DNA of 32,850 nucleotides, taken from positions 1-32,850 of the forward strand of contig JADGOS010000005.1 of assembly GCA_017882825.1 (NCBI GenBank), read 5' to 3'. Below the pieces are notes generated by a model. That model had not been told where the DNA came from and searched no databases. It was given only the letters and a program-made list of their open reading frames with translations. Made by a program: the position numbers and the translations under genes. The number at the start of each line of letters is the position of its first letter. The stretch's first letter is position 1. Source of the stretch: Demequinaceae bacterium (GTDB lineage: Bacteria; Actinomycetota; Actinomycetes; Actinomycetales; Demequinaceae). This document shows, piece by piece, positions 5,372 through 13,214 of the stretch.

Positions 5372-5472
5372 GATGCTCCCCTGGAGTAAGCAGATCCCGC
5401 TCCCCCCGTGGGAGCCAGGCTCAAGACAACCACCTGAGTCCTAGCGCCGCAACCCAACGATTCGGGCGCGCC

Positions 5473-5572
5473 GGGCGTTGTACCTGGCCGGGCGCTGAAT
5501 CTGGCCGGGCGTTGTACCTGGCCGGGCGCGGAATCTGGCCGGGCGCTGAATCTGGCCGGGCGTTGAATTTGG
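5473..5572. repeat. 17-bp tandem repeat, about 5.9 copies
   Basis: Units gggcgttgtacctggcc / gggcgctgaatctggcc repeated at 5473, 5490, 5507, 5524, 5541, 5558. Confidence 0.95.
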
Positions 5573-7277: not shown

Positions 7278-7741
7278 GCGTGATACGCCGACCAGCCGGA
7301 GTTGCGGAACGCCGCGATCCCCAGGCCCGACCGCTCCAGCGGCCCCCCCGGCGGGACGTCGCCCGGCTCGCAGCCGACGGAAACGATCGCGTTGTGCTCG
7401 TCCACGAACACGACCGCGGGCTCATAGGTGCGGGCCTCGGCGTCGGCCATCAACCCGTACGCCATGATGATCACCATGTCGCCGGGGTGCACCAGGTGGG
7501 CCGCCGCGCCGTTGATGCAAACCTGGCCCGAGCCCGCCGCGCCGGGGATCGCGTATGTGGTCAGGCGCGCGCCGTTGGTGACGTCCACGACATCCACCTG
7601 CTGGCCGGGGAGCAGGTCCGCCGCTTCCATGAGTGCGGCGTCGACCGTAATCGAGCCGACGTAGTGGAGGTCGGCCTGGGTCACGGTGGCGCGGTGAATC
7701 TTGGCAATCATCATGGGGCGAAGCAGAGACGTTGCGCTCAT
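7274..7741 (-). CDS. panD: aspartate 1-decarboxylase
   Basis: [51 protein letters not shown]...YGSI-type GSITVD processing site. Start at 7741 overlaps the panC stop (ATGA). Confidence 0.95.
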
Positions 7742-8586
7742 GGCCTGCCTCCCTTGATCGTCGCGGGCATGTTGTCGATGAGCCTCGTCGCGCCGACCTT
7801 GGCCGCCACGGCGATGACTACATCTCCACGGTAGTCGTTTGGCACTACCTCGCACGACGCCGGATCGACCACGGCGAGGTAGTCGAGGACGACGCCGTCG
7901 GCCCTCGCCAGGACGTCGTAACCCGCGGCAAGGACGCCGTCGGGAGCGTCCCCGTGGTCGGCGCGCTCCACGCACGCAAGGAGCGCCTCGCTCAGCGCTA
8001 GGGCACGCTTGCGGTCGCCGCGGCCGAGGAACCGATTGCGGCTCGAGAGCGCGAGCCCGTCGGTCTCGCGCACCGTGGGGACCGCGACCACGTCAACCGG
8101 GATGTTGAAGTCGCGGCACATGCGACGGATCGCGATCAACTGCTGGGCGTCCTTCTGCCCAAAGAGCGCGACGTCGGAGTCCGCAAGGACGAGGAGTTTA
8201 AGCACCACCGTGAGCATCCCATCGAAGTGGCCGGGCCGGTGCGCGCCCTCGAGGACCTCGCCGATTCGGCCGGCGCTCACCGTGACCATGGGCTCACCGT
8301 CGGGGTAGAGGTCGCTCGCGTCCGGGGCGTAGACCAGGTCCACCCCCTCGCTCGCGAGGAGCGCGCAATCCGCATCGAGGGTGCGGGGGTAACGCTCAAG
8401 GTCAACGGGGTCGTTGAACTGCAGCGGGTTGACGAAGATCGTGACGAGGACCTGCTCCGCGAGTTCCCTCGCCTCCCGCACGAGCGCGAGGTGCCCCTCG
8501 TGGAGCGCACCCATCGTCATCACGACGGCCCGCGTGTCCGGCCTCTCGGCCAGCGCGAGGTCGGCGTAACTTCTGAGGACCCTCAT
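7738..8586 (-). CDS. panC: pantoate--beta-alanine ligase
   Basis: [55 protein letters not shown]. Confidence 0.96.
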
Positions 8587-9464
8587 CGCTCCGCCTCGAG
8601 AACACCGACGAGTCCCGCAAACTGCGCCGCGTCTATTCGTCCCGCCTCCAGCGCGATCTCCGCCGTCGCGCGCGCGAGGGCCCGGTAGGTCGCGAGGGTG
8701 CCCGGGTGCGACCGGAGCGCGACGAGGTGCGCCGAGACCGTGCCGACGTCGCCCCGGACGACGGGCCCCGTCAAGCTCGTCGCGGCGCCGGGCGCCTCCG
8801 AGAGCGCCCCGTCGATCGACGCGCGCACCAGGGGCCCGAGGAGCCTTCCGGGGTCCTCCACGCCAGCCGCGCGGAGCGCATCCATCGCCTGCGTGACAAG
8901 GGCGACCACGTGGTTCGCGCCGTGCACGACCCCCGCGTGATACAGCGCGCGGTCCTCGTCGGCGACCACGACGGGCTCGCCACCTAACTCGACGACCAGC
9001 GCCATCGCGATGGGCAGGACCGGCGCAGGCGCCGTGACAGCGAAGACCGCCTCGCGAATGCGCGCAAGGTCCATCGAGGTTCCCGTAAAGGTCATAGCCG
9101 GGTGGATCGCGAGCGCCGTGACGCCGAGGAGCGCGGCCGGTTCGAGGACCGCCAGGCCGTGCAGCCCCGACGTGTGGACCGCGATCTGCCCCGGCCGCCA
9201 GGCCCCAACCGACGCGAGGCCCGCGACCACGGTGGCGAGGGCGTCGTCGGGAACGGTGAGGAGGACGAGGTCGGCGGCGCGGACCACCGCCTCGGGATCG
9301 AGCCGTGGCGTTCCCGGCAGGAGGGCGTCGATGCGAGTGGCGCTCGACTCCGAGATGCCCGAGGCACCGACGACGCGGTGCTCCGCGAGCCGAAGCGCCG
9401 CCCCGAGGACGGCGCCGACCCGACCCCCGCCAACGACCCCGACGTCGAGGCGCCCCGGCCTCAC
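8583..9464 (-). CDS. Rossmann-like / DUF2520 domain protein (possible ketopantoate reductase-like)
   Basis: LDVGVVGGGRVGAVLGAAL Rossmann motif, VLLTVPDDAL, HPAMTFTG, C-terminal helical DUF2520-like region. Stop overlaps panC start. Confidence 0.85.
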   Translation of the reverse strand: MRPGRLDVGVVGGGRVGAVLGAALRLAEHRVVGASGISESSATRIDALLPGTPRLDPEAVVRAADLVLLTVPDDALATVVAGLASVGAWRPGQIAVHTSGLHGLAVLEPAALLGVTALAIHPAMTFTGTSMDLARIREAVFAVTAPAPVLPIAMALVVELGGEPVVVADEDRALYHAGVVHGANHVVALVTQAMDALRAAGVEDPGRLLGPLVRASIDGALSEAPGAATSLTGPVVRGDVGTVSAHLVALRSHPGTLATYRALARATAEIALEAGRIDAAQFAGLVGVLEAER

Positions 9465-9532
9465 CGCTGCCCTGATTTCATCGCTGCACCGGTTTCATTG
9501 CTGCACCGGTTTCATTGCTGCACCGTCGCCAT
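9465..9532 (-). repeat. 17-bp tandem repeats encoding three chained 6-codon mini-ORFs (MKPVQQ*, MKPVQR*, MKSGQR*)
   Basis: Minus strand: ATGGCGACGGTGCAGCA|ATGAAACCGGTGCAGCA|ATGAAACCGGTGCAGCG|ATGAAATCAGGGCAGCG|GTGAGGCCG. Each stop overlaps the next start in ATGA or GTGA. Confidence 0.9.
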
Positions 9533-11122
9533 CCACTGCTCGGGGCTCTGCCTGCCTCGCGCCTCGCGCGCCCTGTCCGCCTGGGCGTCCACCAGCGCAA
9601 CAGCGTCCGCGAGGCCAAGGTGGCGCGCGACGGGGCTGATGGAACCCTTGGTCGAATGGACCTCGACGGTCGCCAGGGACAAGAGACGCTGGAGGGGGCC
9701 CTGACGGATCGACAGTGACTGGGTCTTCTCGTGGGGCACGACGGTCAGGTGGCGAGCGAAGAGCCCATGCCGGATGAGTAGCGCTCGGCCCGTCGCGAGC
9801 ACGCCGCGCCGACGCCACTGCCAGGGATCGACGAGCCACGCGCGCCGGGGCGTCGCGGTGAACCCGTTGTCCGCCCCCACTCCCGAGAGGGCCGCCGACA
9901 CCGTACCGGCCGGGTCGGGATCACCGAGGTCGGGGAGCACCAGCCACAGAGCGTATAGGGCGTCGCGCCGCGGGCCGACGGGAAGGAGCGTCGTCTCGGC
10001 CTGCTCCTCGTCTTGGTAACCCGCGACGTTGATGGTGATGCGCCACCAATCGAAGTGCCGCCACGGGAGGGGCTGGTGCAGCTGGACCGCCTGCACCCTA
10101 CCGGGAGGTACGGTCTGGCGGCGCGTGTCGAGCAGTCCATGTTGCAGCCGAATGCCGTCGGCGGAAATCGCCGCTGTGAAGCCGAAGCCGGAGGAGAAGC
10201 GGGCCCACCCGATCGCGAAGAACGCGAACAGGCCAGAGATCACGCCGTAGGCGCTGCCGCCGAAGAAGCCCGCAATGCCCCCGCCGCCAGAGACCGCGTC
10301 TCCGGCGACCTTCTCGACCGCGACCGCGCCCAGCACGACGACGACCACGATGGCGATCACGACGAAGCCGACGATCATGAGCGTCCACCACGAGGCCACG
10401 ATCGACCCGAGGAGTCGCCCGGGAGGCACGGCGTAGACCTCGCGCTGGGGCGCCGCGACGACGGGCGCGCGCCGCACGGGTTGTTGCAGCACGGGCGCCT
10501 CCAGCACGGGCGCCTGCGACACGGGCGCCTGCGACACGGGAGCCAGCGACACGGGAGCGTCAAGCCGCTCGCCGGAAGGCGCGAGACCCGCGTGCTCGAG
10601 CGAGGACGCCGTCGCGGCCGGCACGCCTGCGTGCGCGCGCCCGACCCCCGCCGCAAGGGCGACGATCTCGTTGCGCAGGGCCTCCGCGTCGTCCAGGCGC
10701 AAGTACTGGAGGCGGACGCTAGACGCCTTGCCTCCAGCGACATCGATCTTCACCTCGGCGAACCCGAACACCCTCGCCAGAAGCGGCTGAACCACGTCCA
10801 CCGCCTGGAGGCGGTCGAGCCTCGCCTGCCGGTACTGCCGAAAGAGAATGCCCTTGCGCTGGTGAACCGCATCGTCGTCCACGCGGAACTGGTTCATCCA
10901 CCACTCGCCGAAGGCGATCGCCAATGCCACCACGATGGCGATCATGATCCCGGCGAGGGGAACCCATGCCGGCGCACTCTTCGCCGCGAACAGGCCTCCC
11001 TGGCCGCCCTGCGCCAGGGCGATGGCGACGAAGACCCCCACGACCTTTCCGCCCAACAGGAGGGGCGTCACGATGTGCAGGCGCGTCCACTCCTCCCGAG
11101 GCGCGAACGGGTGGGACGTCAC
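9512..11122 (-). CDS. PH domain-containing membrane protein (YdbT-like)
   Basis: Two TM/bPH2 modules (QYRQARLDRLQAVDVVQPLLARVFGFAEVKIDVAGG; TVVPHEKTQSLSIRQGPLQRLLSLATVEVHSTKG). Confidence 0.85.
   Translation of the reverse strand: MTSHPFAPREEWTRLHIVTPLLLGGKVVGVFVAIALAQGGQGGLFAAKSAPAWVPLAGIMIAIVVALAIAFGEWWMNQFRVDDDAVHQRKGILFRQYRQARLDRLQAVDVVQPLLARVFGFAEVKIDVAGGKASSVRLQYLRLDDAEALRNEIVALAAGVGRAHAGVPAATASSLEHAGLAPSGERLDAPVSLAPVSQAPVSQAPVLEAPVLQQPVRRAPVVAAPQREVYAVPPGRLLGSIVASWWTLMIVGFVVIAIVVVVVLGAVAVEKVAGDAVSGGGGIAGFFGGSAYGVISGLFAFFAIGWARFSSGFGFTAAISADGIRLQHGLLDTRRQTVPPGRVQAVQLHQPLPWRHFDWWRITINVAGYQDEEQAETTLLPVGPRRDALYALWLVLPDLGDPDPAGTVSAALSGVGADNGFTATPRRAWLVDPWQWRRRGVLATGRALLIRHGLFARHLTVVPHEKTQSLSIRQGPLQRLLSLATVEVHSTKGSISPVARHLGLADAVALVDAQADRAREARGRQSPEQWMATVQQ
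10475..10564. repeat. 15-bp in-frame tandem repeat within the PH-domain gene (APVSQ-type linker)
   Basis: cacggg... units at 10475, 10490, 10505, 10520, 10535, 10550; encodes APVSLAPVSQAPVSQAPVLEAPVLQQPV. Confidence 0.9.
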
Positions 11123-12098: not shown

Positions 12099-13214
12099 CT
12101 ATCCCGTTGGCGGCAAGGGCGGAGGCGGCACGGGCGGAGGCGGCGGCGCGCCAGCGGCGCGCGACCGGATCGTCGCGATCGGATCCCACGGGCTCGCGAC
12201 GACCATCGTTCCCGCAGCGTCCGGCGCCAGGACGGCGAGTTCGACGACCCTTCCTCCTCGGGTGGGATTGCGGCCGGGGCCCGCGAGAAGCACGGCATCC
12301 GGCTCAAGGGCCCCCCACGGGGTAAGCACGAACGAACGCTCGTGGGCTCGCGGGTGCGGAATGACCAGGTCGTCGGCGGCGGCGACGACGTCGTCGTAGG
12401 TGATGATGTCAAGGTCCAGGGTGCGGGGCCCGTTGATGGCGGCGTGCTCGCGCCCGTGGACCATCTCGATCCCCTGCGCGACGTGAAGGAGGGAGCGCGC
12501 CGACAGGGTGGTCTCGATCCGTACGACCGCGTTGAGGAAGTCCGCTTGGTCGGGCCCGCCCACGGGCTTGGTGGCGAGCAAGGGGGACACCGCGACGATG
12601 CGGATGCCCGCCACTCGGTCGAGGTCCTCTATCGCGCGCGCCAGCGTGAATTCGATGTCGCCGACGTTGCCCCCCAGCGCGATGAGAGCGGGAACGGCCG
12701 CGCCGGGGCGTTCATCGAGCTCATCCTTGGGTTCCGGGACCGCCCCGGGCGCCTGCGGGTCGTCGGCAAGGCCGGCCGCCGATCCGATGCGCTTGTCCGC
12801 CCACAGGTCGCCGCCGCGCACGTCGCGTCGAATCACCACGTAGGCGTCCGCCACGGGAACCCCGATCGGTGCCTCGGGCTTGTGAACAATCACGTCGACC
12901 GCATACACCGTGTCGATCTCCAGCACCGCGAACGCAATGCGCTCCGCGAGCGTCTCGATCAAATCGACATGATCTCCCGCAAGGTGGCCGACGGCGAGCG
13001 CAGCGACCTTCGCATAGTTCACGGTCTTGCTCAGTTCGTCCTCGCGCCCCGCGAGTCGCGTGTCGAGGTGCGCGATCACGTCGGCGACGAACGGCTGGCC
13101 CTGTTCCCGCTCGGAGGGCGCCACGCCGTGACGCCCGACGGCCGTGATCCCCTCGACCACGACCGTGTCGAGTTGGACGCCATTCCTGAAATAGGGCGAG
13201 ACAGTAATGGTCAT
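12099..13214 (-). CDS. folBK: bifunctional dihydroneopterin aldolase / 2-amino-4-hydroxy-6-hydroxymethyldihydropteridine pyrophosphokinase
   Basis: FolB half: VVEGITAVGRHGVAPSEREQGQPFVADV, VNYAKVAALA. FolK half: ALGGNVGD, NGPRTLDLDIITY, IPHPRAHERSFVLTPW. Start at ATG 13214. Confidence 0.93.
   Translation of the reverse strand: MTITVSPYFRNGVQLDTVVVEGITAVGRHGVAPSEREQGQPFVADVIAHLDTRLAGREDELSKTVNYAKVAALAVGHLAGDHVDLIETLAERIAFAVLEIDTVYAVDVIVHKPEAPIGVPVADAYVVIRRDVRGGDLWADKRIGSAAGLADDPQAPGAVPEPKDELDERPGAAVPALIALGGNVGDIEFTLARAIEDLDRVAGIRIVAVSPLLATKPVGGPDQADFLNAVVRIETTLSARSLLHVAQGIEMVHGREHAAINGPRTLDLDIITYDDVVAAADDLVIPHPRAHERSFVLTPWGALEPDAVLLAGPGRNPTRGGRVVELAVLAPDAAGTMVVASPWDPIATIRSRAAGAPPPPPVPPPPLPPTG

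Follow-up and report, generated by a model that had tools for sequence, protein, structure and literature searches.

We propose, with a probability of about two in three, that a tandem array at one operon junction of a Demequinaceae bacterium is a ribosome relay, which arose by slippage at a stop/start-overlap junction where duplications that break the hand-over of ribosomes are purged. The window, the whole stretch of 32,850 nucleotides that was analysed, is an entire contig (C96) of a 1.8-Mb, 177-contig MAG, and species of Demequina are its family-level relatives. The array generates a chain of mini-ORFs, its layout recurs at unrelated operon junctions, the unit lengths at junctions are biased in phase, and the internal TGA codons are conserved. 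Ribosomes would translate the mini-ORFs with a small loss per step, and selection for coupling would be the filter that decides which duplications remain.

The array lies in a minus-strand operon with the gene order folP-folB/K-DUF3180-PH-PH-DUF2520-panC-panD-nadB (from the ORF list, with Pfam assignments for the last six genes), between the second PH gene and DUF2520 (Table 1). The DUF2520 and Rossmann-like domains of the downstream partner were recovered with E values of 3e-33 and 1.5e-31, and the identities of panD and of the nadB-like FAD protein were likewise confirmed by Pfam. Tandem Repeats Finder placed the array at 9461-9525 with a period of 17 and 89% matches between copies; the original prediction, which had given 9465-9532, was right about the array itself and a few bases off in its coordinates. 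On the minus strand, the TGA stop of the PH gene (9514-9512) is inside the first ATGA. A path search from this stop to the DUF2520 frame, in which only overlaps of 4 to 1 nt were allowed, returned exactly three mini-ORFs (MKPVQQ*, MKPVQR* and MKSGQR*). The layout originally described, three mini-ORFs in a 17-bp repeat with stop and start codons overlapping by 4 nt, agrees with the sequence letter for letter, and the accompanying arithmetic is correct: 17 equals 21 minus 4, and any unit of 2 mod 3 yields such a layout. When searching the 1.8-Mb genome for ATGA-N13-ATGA-N13-ATGA, three matches were found versus none for a reversed-pattern control, and this three-step pattern exceeds chance. The repeat unit joins the end of the PH gene (CGGTGCAGCA) to the start of DUF2520 (RTGAARCCGG), as would be expected if slippage across the junction produced it. 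The RNA fold of the junction was no better than that of shuffled sequences (z -0.54), and an RNA hairpin at this position was therefore rejected.

The window harbours further repeats. A second 17-bp array at 5470-5572, between nadB and the next minus-strand gene, has six copies and a 34-bp higher-order period; its units carry no RTGA chain, and it is an intergenic array of equal unit length (17 bp). Within the PH gene, 15-bp repeats at 10448-10555 encode a five-residue (VSQAP-like) linker between PH domains, and a PPPPPVPPPPLPPTG repeat tail at 12099-12200 forms the end of the folB/K gene and overlaps the DUF3180 reading frame, a junction at which Demequina G024 and G066 have a GTGA mini-ORF chain instead.

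Table 1. Features of the PH/DUF2520 junction in the window, and other junctions with a mini-ORF layout.
Feature	Position or genome	Strand	Basis
17-bp tandem array, 3.8 copies; end of PH gene and start of DUF2520	9461..9525	-	Tandem Repeats Finder and direct reading
bPH_2 (bacterial PH domain) gene, upstream partner	9512..11122	-	ORF list; Pfam PF03703, E=5e-42
Mini-ORF 1, MKPVQQ*, ATGAAACCGGTGCAGCAATGA; 4-nt overlap (ATGA) with PH stop	9495..9515	-	direct reading and path search
Mini-ORF 2, MKPVQR*, ATGAAACCGGTGCAGCGATGA; 4-nt overlap (ATGA) with mini-ORF 1	9478..9498	-	direct reading and path search
Mini-ORF 3, MKSGQR*, ATGAAATCAGGGCAGCGGTGA; 4-nt overlaps with mini-ORF 2 (ATGA) and with DUF2520 start (GTGA)	9461..9481	-	direct reading and path search
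DUF2520 / Rossmann-like gene, downstream partner, GTG start at 9464	8583..9464	-	ORF list; Pfam PF10728, PF10727
panC; ATGA start on DUF2520 stop, unexpanded 4-nt overlap, same operon	7738..8586	-	ORF list; Pfam PF02569
pgsA-like CDP-alcohol phosphotransferase to PatA-like acyltransferase; 17-nt unit; MNGFPS*, MNGSAR*	genome of the window
Response regulator to histidine kinase; 17-nt unit; VNLPAS* twice	genome of the window
ABC ATPase to permease; 17-nt unit; seven mini-ORFs, mostly VKAVAS*, GTGAAAGCGGTGGCGTC units	G000:C48:1072-1207 (L172, L323)
map to ppgK/ROK; 14-nt unit; MSGLR*	genome of the window
folK/DUF3180; GTGA mini-ORF chain	Demequina G024, G066
Acetyltransferase/NAD(P)H-hydrate dehydratase; mini-ORF layout	Demequina G009

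The origin of the array can be pictured as a series of steps. The ancestral state would have been a PH gene and a DUF2520 gene with a 4-nt overlap, as seen in a congener (G001) and in several Demequina species. A tandem duplication of the 17 bp of this junction may then have separated the two genes by about 50 nt, which would normally be far enough to abolish termination-reinitiation. In reporter work, reinitiation dropped by 40-80% at a spacing of +14 nt and was nearly lost at +38 nt, and no more than the final 15 nt of the upstream ORF were required for it (PMC10666635). By these figures, DUF2520 should be uncoupled by a 50-nt insert that lacks mini-ORFs, whereas an overlapping chain of six-codon ORFs can keep the coupling. 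With a unit length of 2 mod 3 and an RTGA in the unit, each copy begins a six-codon ORF whose stop lies on the start codon that follows, and ribosomes leaving the PH gene would be passed stepwise through the mini-ORFs to DUF2520. Duplications that break the hand-over (mostly those of 1 mod 3) would be purged at coupled junctions, and duplications that preserve it (2 mod 3) or become an N-terminal extension (0 mod 3) would persist and drift. Each relay step should cost some ribosomes, so that the array may be simply tolerated.

The mini-ORF layout was found at four further junctions of the same genome, and the unit sequences are unrelated. All steps of these chains and of the one in the window are -4 overlaps in the path search (contigs C96, C79, C40, C48 and C78), and the seven mini-ORFs between the ABC ATPase and the permease form the longest chain seen. 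Between map and ppgK, one internal copy has lost its TGA (ATGC), and a path through that copy still closes. A strict 17-nt rule was rejected, as 14-nt units occur, and also 16-nt units at one special junction (imuB/dnaE2). Of the 598 same-strand neighbours counted in this genome, 112 share an overlap of exactly 4 nt. Chains at folK/DUF3180 as well as at PH/DUF2520 in the relatives indicate that two junctions of one operon have been expanded in some relative. An array on contig C18 (L134) was rejected as a strict chain, since the upstream stop is a TAG without overlap to the first mini-ORF. In addition, other short repeats were observed in these genomes. Four unlinked intergenic 16-bp arrays in the genome of the window (L142, L172, L199 and L216) have a common CTAGAAC/CCTAGGAC-like core. 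An 8-nt GTGAGTTC array of about ten or more copies is located at G029:C5:129852-129959 (L284), and as 8 is 2 mod 3, each copy is a three-codon ORF that overlaps the next by 4 nt. Another array, at G035:C1:2145302-2145417 (L371), begins on a gene's stop and consists of nine or more perfect 14-nt ATGACCTGGCCCGA copies, with no clear downstream gene.

The PH/DUF2520 junction was then compared among 30 genomes. In 29 of these the two genes overlap, 26 directly and three via one to three mini-ORFs, and the remaining genome has a 1-nt gap. The PH gene of the congener G001 ends in a single GTGA, which is the DUF2520 start. This plain single overlap, found in G001 and in most Demequina, bears out the original view that a coupling junction was expanded by local tandem duplication. 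Demequina G009 harbours a chain of three that is built from different units (MMGAGL*, MTSAGL* and a 17-codon ORF), and judging by these sequences its expansion is independent of that in the window. An apparent 11-nt duplication at the Promicromonospora junctions (L059, L063 and L110) was not counted, the DUF2520 start being a few nt from the PH stop. One record (WNZI01000005.1, L058) is titled Vibrio cholerae and encodes an actinobacterial DUF2520 region with 55% identity and Arthrobacter-like neighbours in the list; it is probably mislabelled or contaminated.

A second junction, imuB/dnaE2, was sampled by protein search and not by the array pattern, which gave 29 readable junctions in Demequina. 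A plain ATGACTGA overlap was present at 21 of them, and the other eight were expanded or interrupted by inserts of 17, 16, 22 or about 44 nt. In all eight, the ImuB stop was linked to the DnaE2 start by a chain closed through 4- or 8-nt overlaps, and the relay length varied among species from zero to three steps. Repeat lengths other than 2 mod 3, which the original prediction had named as evidence against itself, were found only here, as 16-nt units at two junctions (G035 and G066). The native overlap ATGACTGA contains two stops, and for this reason the 16-nt array of G066 closes via 8-nt overlaps. The 16-nt array of G035 has lost the second stop and closes via 11-codon mini-ORFs, with one copy skipped. 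Because of the two stops, closure after duplication is nearly automatic at this junction, which makes it weak evidence for selection. Copy number is variable at imuB/dnaE2, and 16-nt units are not forbidden there. Nine genomes were examined for 16-nt RTGA arrays, and imuB/dnaE2 was the only junction at which one with real unit repetition joined two same-strand genes.

The effect of unit length was simulated by duplicating 109 real 4-nt junctions. The chain closed in 99.5% of cases for lengths of 2 mod 3, in 96.5% for 0 mod 3, where closure takes the form of an N-terminal extension, and in 28% for 1 mod 3. In the scanned part of the genome (about 1.1 Mb of 1.8 Mb), an automatic rule found non-triplet arrays at DTGA junctions in a ratio of 4:0 (2 mod 3 to 1 mod 3), one of the four (C18) having weaker geometry, whereas among the other intergenic arrays the ratio was 11:19 (Fisher one-sided 0.029). 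With the ABC array (flagged 'junction?') and the pgsA/patA array (below the score threshold) added to the automatic set, the ratio was 6:0 and the corresponding value 0.006. Moreover, a comparison of neighbouring copies showed differences at 1 of 63 internal TGA positions and at 30 of 256 positions in the rest of the unit (p=0.007); this value and those for phase come from small, partly hand-classified samples, from species that are not phylogenetically independent and from tests picked after the first examples. In 396 Actinomycetales, ATGA arrays with real repetition numbered 48 at 17 nt versus 22 at 16 nt, counted from the array sequence alone with flanking genes unread, deduplicated by hand and with some arrays shared by related species. 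Arrays of identical units, which are presumably recent, were divided 13 to 12 between 17 and 16 nt, and arrays of diverged units 35 to 10. This is what would be expected if both lengths arise equally and only the chain-forming one is kept. A search for ATGA with a variable gap was too loose, giving hundreds of coding matches.

These data bear directly on the possibility that the layout is a neutral by-product, in which slippage duplicates junctions irrespective of length, the downstream start survives in the last copy and the chain follows from arithmetic without selection. A unit of 2 mod 3 is by itself sufficient for the layout, plain intergenic DNA of this genome likewise contains many tandem arrays of 14-17 bp, and the identical-unit arrays are equally frequent at both lengths. 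Neutrality was already considered in the original prediction, and it does account for the origin of the chain. It does not account, however, for the absence of 1-mod-3 units at ordinary junctions or for the conservation of internal TGAs; the phase bias is seen at junctions and not elsewhere, and among diverged arrays the 17-nt units outnumber the 16-nt units. We consider a purely neutral origin unlikely. A rheostat, in which copy number itself is selected to set the flow of ribosomes to DUF2520-panC-panD-nadB (or to DnaE2 or PatA), with each step passing a fraction, seems to us quite improbable. Reinitiation is indeed imperfect (PMC10666635), and copy number, which the original prediction had proposed to compare across relatives, does vary, with zero to three steps at imuB/dnaE2 and zero or three at PH/DUF2520, in a comparison between species with one genome per species. 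The junctions involved have no common physiology, however, and intermediate copy numbers show no sign of being favoured.

Insertion of a mobile, MIRU-like element at DTGA sites would explain a landing site and a -4 coupling like those of MIRUs (PMC12548453), and one of the arrays is located in a two-component operon, as was the first MIRU. Yet each site has a different unit, similar to the gene ends beside it, and a search of the genome with the array region recovered only the array itself and one weak 39-bp match. As the arrays have no sequence kinship between loci, a mobile element was rejected and is given a very small probability. Equally small is the chance of an assembly artefact. The genome is a MAG in 177 contigs, but at 65 bp the array would fit within a typical read and its copies are not identical, and the same layout is present in near-complete Demequina assemblies of 1 to 30 contigs (G009, G024 and G035).

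If the frame filter acting on a ribosome relay is real, the arrays are natural experiments on translational coupling, in which evolution repeatedly put 17 to 140 nt between coupled genes and retained only those arrangements that permit a relay. This would be direct evolutionary evidence that downstream genes are served by termination-reinitiation and not by independent initiation, a question that is disputed (discussed in PMC10666635). The arrays would also offer a genetic ladder of zero to seven steps on which the loss per step could be measured, and short 'intergenic' repeats of this kind would probably be translated, which calls for caution in annotation. At the junction of DnaE2, an error-prone polymerase, copy number could, speculatively, affect mutagenesis capacity. 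It is tempting, if rather doubtful, to extend the filter to the Actinomycetales as a whole, where slippage at coupled junctions might be a general process that repeatedly leaves local mini-ORF relays at many operons, their copy number drifting or being selected for stoichiometry.

Among known systems, the arrays appear to be closest to the mycobacterial interspersed repetitive units (MIRUs). MIRUs sit at start codons and contain an internal ORF that is coupled to the next gene at -4 spacing, with little effect on expression (reviewed in PMC12548453); their units are 46-101 bp long and variable in copy number, with 12 of 41 loci variable in M. tuberculosis (PMC3914561). The arrays described here share with them the tandem repeats at operon junctions, the DTGA coupling site and a repeat ORF joined by a -4 overlap. 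In contrast to MIRUs, which form one dispersed and apparently mobile family, the units are unrelated between C96, C79, C40, C48 and C78, and they measure 14-17 bp. Every array is built from a unit of its own that stems from the junction where it lies, suggesting local duplication and not an element.

Each relay step also resembles known termination-reinitiation coupling (Huber et al. 2019, 2023), being a -4 (ATGA/GTGA) or a -8 (ATGACTGA) overlap, and the arrays show stop/start overlaps of the kind (4, 1 or 8 nt) by which such coupling is recognised. In prokaryotes no other overlap is nearly as common as the -4 type (PMC10666635). In the known cases one gene is coupled straight to the next, whereas here up to seven repeat-generated mini-ORFs stand in series. 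Short leader ORFs and bicistronic designs hand a ribosome over to the following start codon (PMC12548453), and by analogy the likely role of the mini-ORFs would be only to bring ribosomes to the next start. A leader, however, is a single ORF after a normal initiation site, and here several identical or diverged mini-ORFs are placed between coupled genes. In phase-variable simple-sequence repeats and VNTR rheostats, copy number shifts by slippage beside an expression signal. Repeat copy number likewise differs between related genomes at imuB/dnaE2 and PH/DUF2520, but the 2-mod-3 unit keeps the hand-over rather than breaking it. In the openly accessible literature we found no description of short local repeats of overlap junctions. 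Set apart from MIRUs by unshared sequence and by unit length, these probable relays, locally born and with short units, would be their counterpart.
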